Origin: Pseudomonadota bacterium
GTDB taxonomy: Bacteria; Pseudomonadota; Gammaproteobacteria; Steroidobacterales; Steroidobacteraceae
Direction of reading: 5' to 3'
Assembly (NCBI GenBank): GCA_025355245.1
Contig: JANXZZ010000037.1
Span: 1 to 64,000, forward strand
DNA length: 64,000 bases
Part shown: positions 28,839 to 33,700 of the stretch, piece by piece
Layout of the letters: each line of letters begins with the position of its first letter
Numbering within the stretch: the stretch's first letter is position 1
The notes under the pieces: model-generated
What the model saw: only the letters and a program-made list of their open reading frames with translations
Databases searched by the model: none
What the model was told of the DNA's origin: nothing
Program-made: the position numbers and the translations under genes

Positions 28839-30173
28839 TTGAGCAGCATCCCCGAGACTCCGTCTCCGGCGCCCGCGGGCCTGGCGCACCCGCCGGGTCG
28901 CCTGTGGCGGCGCCAGGCAGCCACGGTCGCGCTCCTCTTCACGGGATACGCCGCGTACTATTTCTGCCGGGCCGATTTCGCGGTGGCAACGCCGCTACTC
29001 GCGGACGAGCTGACCGCCGGGGGAATGGCGACCAAGGATGCGCTCATCCGCCTCGGCGATGTCTCCTCCCTCGGCGTCGCCGCCTATGCGCTTGGCAAGA
29101 TGTTCCTCGGCGGGCTCGGTGACTTCTGGGGCGGGCGTCGCAGCTTCCTGATCGGCCTCGGCGGTGCGACGGCATTTACGCTTATATTCGCCTCCGGGGG
29201 AATGCTGCCCCTCTTTACGATTGCCTGGATCGGCAACCGGCTGACGCAGTCTATTGGCTGGGCCGGGCTCCTCAAGGTCTGTTCGCGCTGGTTCGACTTT
29301 TCTTCCTACGCGAAGATCGTCGGCTTCCTCAGCCTGAGTTACCTGATCGGCGACGTCGTCGCGCGCCACTCAATGGGCGTGCTGATCGAGCACGGCTACG
29401 GATGGCGTGCCCTCTTTTGTTTCGCTGCCGCGGTCGCGGGGCTGCTGCTAGTGCTCAATCTGCTCTTCCTGCGCGAGTCGCGAGTCGAAGCGGGATACAG
29501 CGAGGCCAAGGTCAACCCCGCGAACCTCTTTGCAGACTCGGAAGGGCGTCCGCGCTCCGTGCGCGCGCTGCTGATGCCGTTGCTGCGCAGCAAAGCCTTC
29601 GTGCTGGTCTGCCTCTTGTCGTTCGGTTGCACCGTCGTGCGCGAGACTTTCAACGCGTGGACGCCTCTCTACCTGCACAGCTTCGTCGGCTACTCGCAAG
29701 GGCGCGCCGCGAGTCTGAGTGCTGTCTTCCCGTTGCTCGGCGCCGCGTCGGTGCTCGCGACGGGCTGGCTGGCCGACCGGATCGGCGCCAATCGCCGGGC
29801 ACTGCCACTCCTCGTAGGCCTTATCGCAACGGCCGTGTCGCTCGCGATGCTGACGACCGTGCGCTCGGGAATAGACAACGCGTCCGCGGCACTGACGCTG
29901 ATCGGAGTGGTCGCGTTTTGCCTGTTGGGGCCCTATTCTTACCTTGGCGGTGCGTTCGCCCTCGACTTCGGCGGCAAGCAGGCGGGCGCGATGTCTTCCG
30001 GCATCATCGACGGTGTCGGGTATCTCGGCGGCATCCTTGCCGGGGACACGGTCGCGCGGATCGCGGGCGCATTCGGTTGGCGGGGCGTCTTCATCGCGCT
30101 CGCGATCGTGAGCATGGTTTCCGCAATGGCGGCCGCGAGCCTGTTCATTGTTCAACGACGACAAGTGGTGTGA
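28839..30173 (+). CDS. MFS transporter, organophosphate:phosphate antiporter (GlpT/UhpT) family
   Basis: 444 residues, twelve predicted membrane helices. The first helix contains GYAAYYFCRADFAVATPLL, the typical GlpT/UhpT opening with Tyr-Tyr-x-x-Arg; GLGDFWGGRR after helix 3 is the MFS loop motif, and GWLADRIGANRRALP mirrors it in the second half. OPA carriers exchange phosphate for organophosphates such as glycerol-3-phosphate and also admit the phosphonate fosfomycin. Placed eight bases before the TmpA-like gene, it most likely imports a phosphonate or phosphoester. Start TTG 28839 follows ACGGGG. The N-terminus has a ~20-residue Pro-rich extension. Confidence 0.87.
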   Translation: MSSIPETPSPAPAGLAHPPGRLWRRQAATVALLFTGYAAYYFCRADFAVATPLLADELTAGGMATKDALIRLGDVSSLGVAAYALGKMFLGGLGDFWGGRRSFLIGLGGATAFTLIFASGGMLPLFTIAWIGNRLTQSIGWAGLLKVCSRWFDFSSYAKIVGFLSLSYLIGDVVARHSMGVLIEHGYGWRALFCFAAAVAGLLLVLNLLFLRESRVEAGYSEAKVNPANLFADSEGRPRSVRALLMPLLRSKAFVLVCLLSFGCTVVRETFNAWTPLYLHSFVGYSQGRAASLSAVFPLLGAASVLATGWLADRIGANRRALPLLVGLIATAVSLAMLTTVRSGIDNASAALTLIGVVAFCLLGPYSYLGGAFALDFGGKQAGAMSSGIIDGVGYLGGILAGDTVARIAGAFGWRGVFIALAIVSMVSAMAAASLFIVQRRQVV

Positions 30174-30181
30174 GGTAACGC

Positions 30182-31339
30182 GTGAGCACGATGCCGGGGG
30201 GCGATCTCAAGACGTTTTCATTCACGCCGGAGTCCTTGCGCATCGAGTGGCAGGGCGGCGAGCGGTCGGAATACGCGAGCCTGTGGCTGCGCGACAACCG
30301 TCCCGTCGACCGGGACGTGCAGAGCGGACAACGCCTCGTCGACGTCGTCGATCTGCCTGCGGCTCCCAGGATCCGCGCCGTAGCGGCGGCCGGTGACTCG
30401 GTCACGGTCGAATGGGGCGATGAACAGGTGCCAGCGTCCTTCGACATTCGCTGGCTTCGCGAGCACTCGCCCGGTGGCGGCCACCGCCCGCCCGAGTTGT
30501 CGATCACCTTCTGGCTCGAAGGCGCGACGCTGGAGGCGTCGCGGGATCTTGCGTGGCTCTCGCTGCCCGTATTCCGTTCGGATTCGACCCGCCGGCTCGC
30601 GTGGATGACGCGTCTCGTGCAGGAGGGCATCGCGTTCGTCAGCGAGGTGCCATCGACCGAGCACGCAATTCTCGATGCCGTCGCGCCGCTCGGCCTCGTC
30701 ATGGATACAAACTACGGACGTGTGTTCGACGTGCGCTCGGTGCCGCAGCCGGAAAATCTGGCGTACTCCGATCGCGGGCTCGGCCTGCACACAGACAACC
30801 CGTATCGGGATCCGGTCCCGGGGTTCCAGGCGCTGCATTGCCTCATCGCGTCGCGGGAAGGGGGCGAGAACATATTCGCCGACGGTTTCGCGATCGCGGA
30901 GCACCTACGCAGGACCGATCCGAAGTCGTTCGCGACACTGACCGAGACTCCGGTCCTGTTTCGCTACCGATCGAAGGACGCGGAACTCTTCTCCGAGAAG
31001 CCGCTGATCCAGTTGTCGACGCGCGGAGATGTGCGGGCGGTGCACTACAACAACCGCTCGATCGCGCCGCTGCAGCTCGCACCCAACACCGTCGCTGCGT
31101 TCTACGCGGCCTACCGCGGATTTGCGCTGCTGCTTCGGGAGCCGCGTTTCCAGGTGCACACGAAGCTGCACGATGGCGACCTGGTCGTGTTCGATAACCG
31201 CCGCACCTTGCACGGCCGGACCGGCTTTTCGTCCGCCCGCTTCGGGCGTCACCTGCAGGGTTGCTACCTGACGCGTGACAGCGTGTTGAGCGAAACAGCG
31301 TTGCTTCGGCGCCGCGTAGAACGGGATCGCGCCCGATGA
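30182..31339 (+). CDS. TmpA-like Fe(II)/2-oxoglutarate dioxygenase (trimethylaminoethylphosphonate hydroxylase / gamma-butyrobetaine hydroxylase family)
   Basis: 385 residues. The N-terminal DUF971-like domain (~15-110) starts LRIEWQGGERSEYASLWLRDN, then a TauD catalytic domain. Iron ligands are His203 and Asp205 in GLHTDNPYRDPVP and His344 in RTLHGRTGF; Arg356 fits the 2-oxoglutarate site. The pattern HTDNPYRDP is what I know from TmpA, which hydroxylates 2-(trimethylamino)ethylphosphonate at C1. In gamma-butyrobetaine hydroxylase the N-domain binds zinc by cysteines just after WLRDN; here that place reads RPVDRDVQSGQR, with none. Its stop overlaps the next start (ATGA), and the next product is a TmpB/PhnZ homologue, which strongly supports a phosphonate role over carnitine synthesis. 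GAGGTAA precedes GTG 30182. Confidence 0.8.
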   Translation: MSTMPGGDLKTFSFTPESLRIEWQGGERSEYASLWLRDNRPVDRDVQSGQRLVDVVDLPAAPRIRAVAAAGDSVTVEWGDEQVPASFDIRWLREHSPGGGHRPPELSITFWLEGATLEASRDLAWLSLPVFRSDSTRRLAWMTRLVQEGIAFVSEVPSTEHAILDAVAPLGLVMDTNYGRVFDVRSVPQPENLAYSDRGLGLHTDNPYRDPVPGFQALHCLIASREGGENIFADGFAIAEHLRRTDPKSFATLTETPVLFRYRSKDAELFSEKPLIQLSTRGDVRAVHYNNRSIAPLQLAPNTVAAFYAAYRGFALLLREPRFQVHTKLHDGDLVVFDNRRTLHGRTGFSSARFGRHLQGCYLTRDSVLSETALLRRRVERDRAR

Positions 31340-31887
31340 ATGTCACCGACGAGGTGGTCGCACTGTTCGCCGGCCGGGGCGGCGGCGCGTATTTTGGCGA
31401 GCGAGTGTCGATGCTGGAGCACATGCTGCAGGCCGCGCACTTTGCCGAGCAGGAACGCGCGCCAGCGCACCTGGTCGTCGCGGCGCTGCTTCACGACGTC
31501 GGCCACCTGGTCGAAACAGTCCCCGATGACATCGCCGACTGGCACGAGGACGCTAAGCACGAGGAAGTCGGCGGTGCGTGGCTGGCGCGGCGATTCGGGC
31601 CCGACGTCAGCGATCCCGTGCGCCTGCACGTCCCCGCCAAGCGCTACCTGTGTGCAACCGAGCCGTCGTACTTCGCGCAGCTGAGTCCGGCTTCCGTGAT
31701 CACCCTCAAACTGCAGGGCGGGCCAATGAGTACGGCCGAGATTGGCGCTTTTGAGCTCGAGCCCCACCACAGCGAAGCCGTGCGCGTACGAAAATGGGAC
31801 GATCGCGGTAAGGTCTTGAATCTCAGCACCCGTGGACTGACCGAATATCGATCGCTCATCGAAGCTGTGGCGACTCGGCCCCGCTGA
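31336..31887 (+). CDS. TmpB/PhnZ-like HD-domain mixed-valent diiron oxygenase (C-P bond cleavage)
   Basis: 183 residues, the length of PhnZ. The HD ligands all have counterparts: His29 (MLEHML), His53-Asp54 (LLHDVGH) with His57, His75 (KHEEVGG), His98 (LHVPAKRYL) and Asp155 (KWDDRGK). The gating pair of PhnZ/TmpB, Tyr and Glu in Y-x-G-E, is present as Tyr19/Glu22 in AYFGERV. These features separate the oxygenases from ordinary HD phosphohydrolases. Known members oxidise 1-hydroxyphosphonates to a carboxylate and phosphate. Coupled by a 4-base overlap to the TmpA-like gene, it would cleave that enzyme's hydroxylated product, releasing phosphate. Confidence 0.87.
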   Translation: MNVTDEVVALFAGRGGGAYFGERVSMLEHMLQAAHFAEQERAPAHLVVAALLHDVGHLVETVPDDIADWHEDAKHEEVGGAWLARRFGPDVSDPVRLHVPAKRYLCATEPSYFAQLSPASVITLKLQGGPMSTAEIGAFELEPHHSEAVRVRKWDDRGKVLNLSTRGLTEYRSLIEAVATRPR

Positions 31888-31934
31888 CAGGCGCGCGGCA
31901 GCCCGATTCGGCGAACAGGGGAGGGGGTAGCTTC

Positions 31935-32738
31935 GTGGTAGTGAAACTCGATCAGCCGAGCGCGGCCGGGGAATACGACGCCTCGATGCAGGCGCTGTTG
32001 CAGATCGTGTGGGGCGAGGGGTTCCTGTCGCCCGGCGGTCCCGAGGAGATCGCACGGCTCCTGGAGGGTACGGACATCGGCGGCTGTTCGGTCCTCGACA
32101 TCGGCTGTGGCCTCGGCGCGGTCGATCAGCTGCTCGTCACGCGCCACGGTGCGGGGGCGGTCGTCGGCATCGACATCGACCCTGACCTGCTCGCGCAACT
32201 GCACTCGCGAATCGAGGCCGCGGGCCTGTCAGACCGCATCCGTGGGCAGCGCGTCGAACCCGGGCCTCTGCCGTTCGCGGACGCGAGTTTCGAAGTCGTC
32301 TTTTCCAAGGATTCGCTCGTGCAGATTCCGGACAAGGTCGGGCTTTTCGCCGAAGTGCACCGAGTGCTCAAGCCTGGCGGGCGGTTCATCGCGAGCGATT
32401 GGTTGCGAGGCGGGGAGGGTGCGTACTCGGCGGCGATGCTGGAATTCTTTCGGCTCGAGGGAATCGCGTACAACATGGCGACGCTGGGTGCGAGCGCGCA
32501 GGCGCTCCAGGCCGCGGGCTTCGCGGACGTCGAGGTGCGCGATCGCAATGCCTGGTATCTCGCACTTGCCGAGCGCGAGGTCGCTGCGATCGAGGGTCCG
32601 TGGAAGCCGCTCATCACGCGGCAGATCGGGCAGGAACGGGCCGAGCATTTCATCGCGAACTGGCGCCAGCTTGTTGTGGTGCTGCGTGCCGGGGAGCTGC
32701 GGCCGGGCCACCTCAAAGCCGTGAAGAGAGTGAATTGA
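31935..32738 (+). CDS. SAM-dependent methyltransferase resembling phosphoethanolamine N-methyltransferases
   Basis: 267 residues. Before the SAM motif the protein reads IVWGEGFLSPGG, the counterpart of the IFGEGFVSTGG segment that marks phosphoethanolamine N-methyltransferases of plants, nematodes and Plasmodium. Motif I is LDIGCGLGAVDQ, the acidic end of strand 2 is GIDIDPDLLA, and motif post-I/IV reads FSKDSLVQIPDK. The RVLKPGGRFIASDW segment is the usual strand 5 region. The gene lies 48 bases after the HD oxygenase with GGAGGGGG before GTG 31935. N-methylation of an aminoalkyl phosphonate or of phosphoethanolamine is my inference; glycine/sarcosine methylation is an alternative. Confidence 0.8.
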   Translation: MVVKLDQPSAAGEYDASMQALLQIVWGEGFLSPGGPEEIARLLEGTDIGGCSVLDIGCGLGAVDQLLVTRHGAGAVVGIDIDPDLLAQLHSRIEAAGLSDRIRGQRVEPGPLPFADASFEVVFSKDSLVQIPDKVGLFAEVHRVLKPGGRFIASDWLRGGEGAYSAAMLEFFRLEGIAYNMATLGASAQALQAAGFADVEVRDRNAWYLALAEREVAAIEGPWKPLITRQIGQERAEHFIANWRQLVVVLRAGELRPGHLKAVKRVN

Positions 32739-32763
32739 ACATCGCATCCGGACGGGAACAACC

Positions 32764-33588
32764 GTGACGGACGCGCGTTTGGCGCCGATCGGCGTCTTCG
32801 ATTCTGGCGTCGGTGGCCTATCGGTGCTCGACGAAATTCGCCGCCTGCTGCCGAACGAGTCGCTGCTGTACGTCGCCGATTCGGGGTTCGCTCCGTACGG
32901 CGAGCGCGGCACCCCTTATATAGAGCAGCGTTGCGCGGCTATTGCCGATTTCCTGGTCGGGGCGGGGGCGAAGACGATCGTCATCGCCTGCAACACGGCG
33001 ACCGCGGCGCTAGCGCCGGCGCTGCGCGAGCGGATCGCTGTGCCCGTCGTTGCAATCGAGCCGGCGGTGAAGCCCGCTGCCGGGGCATCCCGCTCCGGAG
33101 TCGTCGGCGTGCTCGCGACCCAGCAGACCCTCGCCAGCGAGCGGTTCACGCGCCTGGTCGGCGCGCATGCCGCGGGCGTGGAAATTGTCTCCGAGGCGTG
33201 CCCCGACCTCGTCAGCCTGGTCGAGCGTGGCGTAACGTCCGGAATCGAAGCCGAATCCATGGTCGCAGCACACGTCGCCCGGCTCCGCGAGCGGCGCGCC
33301 GACACGATCGTCCTTGGCTGCACGCACTTTCATTTCCTGCGCGGGCTCGTGGAAAAAGCGGCCGGGCCGGACGTTCGCGTGATTGATCCCGGACACGCCG
33401 TCGCGCTCGAGGTGCGCCGCCGGTTGGCGGCGCGCGAACTGCTCAGTGACCAGCCGCGCAACGGCATGGATCGGATCTGGACGACCGGCGACGTCGCGGC
33501 CGGCAACGTCGTCATCGGAAAGTTGTGGCCGTGGCCCCGGGAGCTCGCACCGCTGCCCGCCGCGTACTGCATGCCGCCAGCCGCATGA
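32764..33588 (+). CDS. murI: Glutamate racemase
   Basis: 274 residues, the normal length. It interconverts L- and D-glutamate in the cytoplasm for peptidoglycan. Seen: VFDSGVGGLSVL with Asp13, YVADSGFAPYGE, the catalytic Cys76 in ACNTATAAL, and Cys186 in LGCTHFHFL. GTG 32764 is 25 bases after the methyltransferase stop, so this housekeeping gene is read through from the phosphonate-like operon or from a promoter inside it. Directly after it comes an abrupt AT-rich stretch. Confidence 0.96.
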   Translation: MTDARLAPIGVFDSGVGGLSVLDEIRRLLPNESLLYVADSGFAPYGERGTPYIEQRCAAIADFLVGAGAKTIVIACNTATAALAPALRERIAVPVVAIEPAVKPAAGASRSGVVGVLATQQTLASERFTRLVGAHAAGVEIVSEACPDLVSLVERGVTSGIEAESMVAAHVARLRERRADTIVLGCTHFHFLRGLVEKAAGPDVRVIDPGHAVALEVRRRLAARELLSDQPRNGMDRIWTTGDVAAGNVVIGKLWPWPRELAPLPAAYCMPPAA

Positions 33589-33600
33589 GTGGGGCGTTCT

Positions 33601-33700
33601 TTGTCACGAGACTAAAAAATTATTGTTTATAATCAATAGGTTATATTGTATTCTACGCATAATGATTCTTATGTTAAATGATAAGTTAGCAGCTCCTTAG
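33601..33700. other. AT-rich intergenic patch after murI
   Basis: Between about 33611 and 33690 the sequence turns sharply AT-rich (long A and T runs, TATAAT at 33628-33633, and TAATGATTCTTAT near 33660), unlike the rest of the window. It holds no gene. It could be a promoter/UP region for the small membrane protein at 33814, an A/T-rich regulator target (Fur- or H-NS-like), or a scar of an inserted element. Confidence 0.6.

Follow-up and report, generated by a model that had tools for sequence, protein, structure and literature searches.

A TmpAB-like phosphonate oxygenase operon in a Steroidobacteraceae genome and an adjoining methyltransferase that may supply its substrate

Does a methyltransferase encoded directly behind two phosphonate oxygenase-like genes make the substrate that these oxygenases consume? 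The question is raised by a 64,000-nucleotide stretch of a Steroidobacteraceae contig (JANXZZ010000037.1, assembly GCA_025355245.1; hereafter the window), in which an OPA-type MFS transporter, a TmpA-like Fe/2-oxoglutarate dioxygenase, a TmpB/PhnZ-like HD oxygenase and a class I S-adenosylmethionine (SAM) methyltransferase are encoded one after another on the + strand. The reading we favor, tentatively and with somewhat less than even confidence, is that the conserved OPA/TmpA-like/TmpB-like operon imports and oxidizes 2-(trimethylamino)ethylphosphonate, the trimethyl form of aminoethylphosphonate, and that the methyltransferase likely makes the dioxygenase substrate from less methylated forms. 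The window is part of contig C206, in a draft genome of 4.04 Mb that is 87% complete; its nearest named relative is L007, a metagenome-assembled genome (MAG) titled Proteobacteria bacterium.

An earlier sequence-only reading had described four same-direction genes followed by murI, and the open reading frames of the window place all of them on the + strand where that reading had put them. The spacers between the four genes are 8, −4 and 47 bases; the first two had been given correctly and the third as 48. Pfam and NCBIfam assign the products to the classes of OPA-type MFS transporters, TauD/GBBH-type dioxygenases, HD proteins and class I methyltransferases. The transporter gene (28839-30173, +), which has a TTG start, matches Pfam MFS_1 and has TIGR00881 as its best NCBIfam model (145 bits, under that model's cut-off); its product is predicted to import phosphonate.

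The dioxygenase gene (30182-31339, +) is predicted, from NF049936, PDB 6npb and its residues, to encode an enzyme that hydroxylates the trimethyl form. Its product scores 354 bits against the TmpA model NF049936, where the cut-off of 400 is not reached, and its best solved relative by sequence is TmpA (6npb, 236 bits). The HTDNPYRDP motif pointed out in the sequence-only reading is present and includes H203 and D205; these residues and H344, the Fe(II) facial triad, are kept together with the 2-oxoglutarate arginine R356 in 32/32 aligned rows (the alignment covers 32 of 34 found). Y178, F182, Y195 and Y362 stand at what we take, from human gamma-butyrobetaine dioxygenase (BBOX), to be the aromatic cage for the trimethylammonium group, and all four are aromatic. 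The phosphonate ligands of TmpA are N187, N287 and R288 in TmpA numbering (PMC9296572), and the window protein has N192, N291 and R292 at these positions; the arginine occurs in all 32 aligned rows and the second asparagine in 24, with serine in the other 8.

This arginine bears on whether the dioxygenase could be a carnitine-pathway enzyme of the gamma-butyrobetaine type, in which case the operon would be unrelated to phosphonates. The protein does belong to the BBOX superfamily and reaches 296.5 bits against TIGR02409 (gamma-butyrobetaine dioxygenase), but this score is below both the cut-off of 414.75 and its own TmpA score. Human BBOX, the solved carnitine-pathway relative at 136 bits, is without the phosphonate arginine that the window dioxygenase has, and a phosphonate-type HD oxygenase follows the dioxygenase in the operon. 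By score, then, the grouping with carnitine-pathway enzymes that had been named as a refuting outcome is not found, TmpA ranking above BBOX in profiles and solved relatives, and we consider a carnitine role hardly credible.

The HD oxygenase gene (31336-31887, +) is predicted, from TIGR03276, NF049941, PDB 6npa and its residues, to encode a mixed-valent di-iron enzyme that splits the carbon-phosphorus (C-P) bond to give betaine and phosphate. Its product scores 205.6 bits against TIGR03276 (Phn-HD; cut-off 214.6 not reached) and 195.9 bits against NF049941 (TmpB; cut-off 300 not reached), and its best solved relative by sequence is TmpB (6npa, 141 bits), with PhnZ at 105 bits. The ligand motif and YxxE loop of HD oxygenases are described in PMC8177086. 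All six ligands (H29, H53, D54, H75, H98, D155) and the Y19/E22 gate, listed as kept in the sequence-only reading, were recovered by alignment and are present in 24/24 aligned rows (24 of 38 rows covered).

Judged from sequence comparison, the pair is best read as oxidizing trimethyl-aminoethylphosphonate to betaine and phosphate, since it has retained its catalytic residues and, in the dioxygenase, the phosphonate-binding arginine of TmpA. The residues, the best solved relatives and the conserved operon support the TmpA/TmpB identification first proposed. The TmpA cut-off is passed by four TmpA homologues of other groups and missed by those of the window and of L166; since the residues are nevertheless kept, we regard the window pair as a divergent branch predicted to work like TmpAB and do not file it as TmpA/TmpB proper. 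It shares with the characterized Leisingera caerulea pair (PDB 6npb, 6npa) the tmpA-tmpB order, the metal ligands, the gate and the phosphonate residues. It differs in that both enzymes fall below their NCBIfam cut-offs, an OPA-type transporter heads the operon and a methyltransferase is joined on.

Gene order near TmpB homologues was compared in 37 regions: 24 belong to the window's family or to the close methyltransferase clade, and 13 do not. OPA-TmpA-TmpB stands in the same order as in the window in 21/24 related regions, so the arrangement of the first three genes is more than chance; of the remaining related regions, L176 has TmpA-TmpB only. No OPA gene was found in the other 13 TmpB regions, and in 6/13 of these TmpA is preceded by a divergently oriented gene of one cluster, of which one member was tested and proved to be a LysR regulator. 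Apart from the window, L165 (from the L007 genome) and L166 (from the L012 genome) are the only regions compared that have the methyltransferase inside the operon. L187 and L190 each contain a TmpB homologue without an adjoining TmpA, and both genomes carry the methyltransferase.

The methyltransferase is tied to the phosphonate genes mainly by genome co-occurrence. Among 196 genomes of the order, 12 have TmpB (E 4e-44 or better), and 9 of these, with no others, have a close methyltransferase (62-100% identity); 12 further methyltransferase matches in the order (35-43% identity) come without a strong TmpB. TmpB is present in 22/25 genomes with a close-clade methyltransferase locus (L007-L031; 15/18 in one search plus 7, the misses being L021, L023 and L024) and in 10 of the 32 outer-clade genomes searched, of 55. 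Across 200 genomes of the family, where TmpB serves as a stand-in for the TmpAB pair, TmpB occurs in 63 (two weak matches at 34-41% identity, G365 and G291, were dropped from 65), the methyltransferase in 29 (24 close, 5 at 47-49% identity) and both in 26. TmpB is thus found in 26/29 methyltransferase genomes versus 37/171 without it (Fisher 2e-12) and, outside the window's genus, in 13/16 versus 36/169 (p 2.5e-6).

Plain counts of this kind ignore kinship and are therefore insufficient as proof of co-occurrence. An independent-pairs test on 8 pairs (low power) gave 2.7 with TmpB changing the same way and 0.6 the other way, and 3.1 and 0.3 for PhnA, a comparison gene present in 39/200 family genomes. 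Because this test lacked power, we added a Pagel-type fit on a ParE tree of 110 genomes: the 29 with the methyltransferase, same-genus genomes without it that had a listed ParE, 12 of 14 random genomes, and another 22 taken from among the 30 best ParE loci (G332 and G342 were inadvertently omitted; none of the 110 was chosen by TmpB state). On this one gene tree, with quick support values and no neutral control gene, and by a kind of fit that can go astray if the signal comes from few transitions, a model that ties methyltransferase gain and loss to TmpB does better than independence (p 3.8e-5, 2 degrees of freedom; full model 2.4e-4, 4 degrees of freedom); with PhnA in place of TmpB, p is 0.0055 and 0.0088. 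In PhnA-negative genomes, TmpB is present in 7/10 with the methyltransferase versus 20/151 without (p 1.5e-4), and in PhnA-positive genomes in 19/19 versus 17/20 (p 0.23).

What kind of enzyme is the methyltransferase? Its gene (31935-32738, +) encodes, by Pfam/NCBIfam and fold, a class I SAM enzyme with the fold of phosphoethanolamine N-methyltransferases (PMTs), whose likely reaction is N-methylation of aminoethylphosphonates with fewer methyl groups to give the trimethyl form. The family of its relatives, METHYLTRANSFERASE, numbers 4178 at E 1e-3 among 7999 scored. Its leading solved relatives, by sequence and by fold, are all PMTs, the best by sequence being the C-terminal half of Arabidopsis PMT1 and PMT2 (104 and 101 bits, whole chains), and the equivalents of catalytic Tyr19 and Asp128 are kept. 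The PMT phosphate site is made up of Tyr27, Tyr160, Tyr175, Arg179, Tyr181 and Lys247 (PMC6705855), and the window enzyme has L22, W156, F171, E175, Y179 and L246 there. Tyr27, Tyr160, Arg179 and Lys247 are thus replaced by L, W, E and L; position 171 is F in 11 and Y in 10 of 21 close rows. Catalytic His132 is Q130 in 21/21 close rows and is kept as His in 26/27 outer rows. Within the segment responsible for phosphate binding in PMTs, the close clade has its own set of invariant residues, including R173.

With most phosphate ligands exchanged, the enzyme is, on its residues, not a standard phosphoethanolamine methyltransferase: it differs in these ligands, and the close clade also in the Gln at the dyad His, from the enzymes of plants, nematodes and Plasmodium. 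The PMT-like label given in the sequence-only reading holds for fold and solved relatives and fails at the phosphate site. The alternative set beside it, a PMT acting in a phosphocholine/phosphatidylcholine route apart from the phosphonate genes, could claim this kinship and the name phosphoethanolamine N-methyltransferase that several sources give to close homologues. It is weakened by the four ligand exchanges, by His132 to Gln and by the co-occurrence with TmpB, and we judge it improbable.

Gene neighborhoods were compared at 80 methyltransferase loci from species genomes (25 close-clade, 55 outer-clade; some with short flanks). Conservation of the methyltransferase beside tmpAB, for which a neighborhood search had been proposed and whose lack had been named among the refuting outcomes, was not found: within the fetched flanks, a window-like TmpA and TmpB stand beside it in only 2/80 relatives (L007, L012) besides the window. 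We therefore rejected operon linkage as the main argument for its role. Adjacency to TmpB occurs on two separate branches of the methyltransferase tree, with spacers, counted on the sequence, of 47 bases in the window, 37 in L007 and 19 in L012. The proposal that the methyltransferase feeds TmpA draws support from its tie to TmpB across genomes and on the tree, from the two separate adjacencies and from the invariant residues of the close clade.

Several further observations weigh against that proposal. Both oxygenases score under the TmpA and TmpB cut-offs, and the methyltransferase has lost PMT phosphate ligands. In the family, 37/63 TmpB genomes are without the methyltransferase, 3/29 methyltransferase genomes are without TmpB (one, G260, rated 100% complete), and in 2/26 shared genomes (those of L187 and L190) no TmpA adjoins TmpB. 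The independent-pairs test fell short of significance, with PhnA equal to TmpB. Among TmpB genomes the methyltransferase leans to PhnA carriers (19/26 versus 17/37, p 0.04), so general phosphonate use may account for part of the co-occurrence signal. Polyamine-type ABC genes and other methylated-amine-like genes are found close to outer-clade relatives.

A rival explanation is that OPA-TmpA-TmpB degrades imported trimethyl form and that the methyltransferase is a bystander acting on another amine or betaine-like compound, sharing only a methylated-amine/phosphonate lifestyle. The lack of linkage to TmpAB in nearly all relatives, the lost phosphate ligands and the pairs test fit this explanation, as do a polyamine-type ABC transporter permease cluster in 28/80 loci, including close-clade L023, L029 and L030, and a DMSP (dimethylsulfoniopropionate)-lyase-type cupin near 14 loci (one cluster member tested). 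It fits less well with the two separate adjacencies to TmpB, with a model dependence that is stronger on TmpB than on PhnA and with the clade-specific residues in the substrate segment. We treat a bystander role as a serious rival, possible though not probable.

If the methyltransferase does feed the dioxygenase, which phosphonate would it methylate? The host genome carries PhnA, phosphonoacetaldehyde dehydrogenase (PhnY), a TIGR03364 flavoprotein and PhnW together on contig C70 (L202:7977-14650), a complete PhnWAY-type cluster. PhnW is over cut-off in 20/29 genomes, the host included; phosphoenolpyruvate (PEP) mutase is over cut-off in 1/29 genomes searched, and none is over cut-off in the host. 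Flavoenzymes in PhnWAY-type clusters oxidize N-methyl-aminoethylphosphonate (PMC10590968), and we infer that the TIGR03364 protein does so here. The window system resembles the combination of PhnWAY with PbfB, PbfC and PbfD, whose accessory enzymes funnel N-methylated aminoethylphosphonate to C-P cleavage (PMC10590968), in that the host has PhnW, PhnY, PhnA and the flavoprotein; it differs in that the methylated amine is removed oxidatively there, whereas a methyl group would be added here. According to the same paper, two iron oxygenases are the sole described route for the trimethyl form, and its main text nowhere uses the word methyltransferase.

In the host, PhnWAY can thus take plain aminoethylphosphonate, the flavoenzyme likely the N-methyl form and TmpAB the trimethyl form. 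The dimethyl form would then be the gap; one methylation would close it, and the methyl group would be recoverable from betaine. Betaine-homocysteine methyltransferase is over cut-off in 24/29 genomes searched; in the host, its gene is seen in two pieces that lie at the ends of contigs. In L173, L174, L185 and L188 it stands immediately next to TmpB in convergent orientation, and in L172 and L179 it lies within four genes of TmpB; in L185 (8360-9430) the gene stands tail to tail with TmpB and scores 474 bits (cut-off 338).

In the favored reading, the OPA-type transporter would, from its operon position, import the phosphonate. The methyltransferase would use SAM to convert dimethyl-, and perhaps monomethyl- or unmethylated, aminoethylphosphonate into the trimethyl form. 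The TmpA-like enzyme would hydroxylate carbon 1 and the TmpB-like enzyme split the C-P bond, as their residues and the characterized Leisingera pair suggest. Betaine could then serve as methyl donor through betaine-homocysteine methyltransferase, a flux that the gene content would allow.

The methyltransferase might have a larger task, with aminoethylphosphonate itself as its substrate, as the sequence-only reading had envisaged. Imported aminoethylphosphonate, a common phosphonate, would then pass through three SAM methylations, methylation would be the activating step for C-P cleavage to phosphate and glycine betaine, and the enzyme would be a bacterial aminoethylphosphonate N-methyltransferase of catabolism. 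We consider this version unlikely, though far from negligible. With PhnW, PhnY and PhnA already there to serve plain aminoethylphosphonate, spending three methylations on phosphate alone would be wasteful in this genome; a better fit would be the completion of partly methylated forms, or betaine production as an end in itself. In G102, which has the four-gene operon, neither PhnW nor PhnA gave a match at the thresholds applied; in such genomes three-step methylation could open the only route, and G102 would depend on it. The methyltransferase might instead act downstream, converting dimethylglycine or sarcosine to betaine and so raising the products that TmpAB forms from less methylated phosphonates, which we think very improbable.

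The sequence-only reading knew of no described operon with such a methyltransferase, and a literature search on TmpAB, aminoethylphosphonate N-methylation, dehydrofosmidomycin and the trimethyl phosphonate, with most subscription papers outside its scope, likewise turned up none described as working with TmpAB. The nearest precedent is the DfmD clade of dehydrofosmidomycin biosynthesis, which belongs to the same dioxygenase superfamily and shares the substrate, and whose homologues are encoded in operons with putative N-methyltransferases (PMC9296572). DfmD acts in antibiotic biosynthesis, with PEP mutase in the clusters of its closest homologues; the window system, in contrast, has a partner of the C-P cleavage type, and its host has no PEP mutase over cut-off. 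If the favored reading is true, C-P bond catabolism could be supplied through the addition of methyl groups rather than their removal, phosphorus nutrition would be joined to the methyl cycle and betaine supply, and there would be a candidate enzyme for the synthesis of 2-(trimethylamino)ethylphosphonate. With three of the four proteins soluble enzymes and the other a transporter, the question lends itself to direct testing in a laboratory host.

Other neighboring genes were considered as parts of the system and rejected. These are the upstream histidine kinase and amidohydrolase and the downstream murI (32764-33588, +; an open frame 3′ of the methyltransferase gene). Among the 80 loci, the kinase and murI occur only in L007, and the amidohydrolases found in the vicinity of relatives are otherwise more distant (27-46% identity). 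A pyridoxal phosphate (PLP) enzyme gene often found near the methyltransferase (cluster c12) was rejected as PhnW, the three members tested being cysteine-desulfurase-like.

In outer-clade L039, L043, L051, L054, L055, L071, L076 and L081, the methyltransferase match has the DMSP-lyase-cupin-type cluster (one member tested) immediately upstream. Often the outer-clade cupin loci also have a Rieske oxygenase remotely similar to GbcA (120 bits, cut-off 670) and polyamine-type ABC genes, and such loci would appear to encode some methylated-compound pathway. The surroundings of other relatives, L063:10777-16718 and L074:5364-13813, contain a trimethylamine-methyltransferase (MttB)-like protein that stays below cut-off, along with GcvT-like demethylases, CrtO-like flavoproteins and a BetI-like regulator. 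L044, titled a Klebsiella pneumoniae MAG, is an outer-clade relative (47% identity) whose neighborhood is common to the gammaproteobacterial MAG L056, and its title is probably a misassignment. Just past murI, about 100 bases of the window (33605-33700) are strikingly A+T-rich, the rest of the window being G+C-rich.

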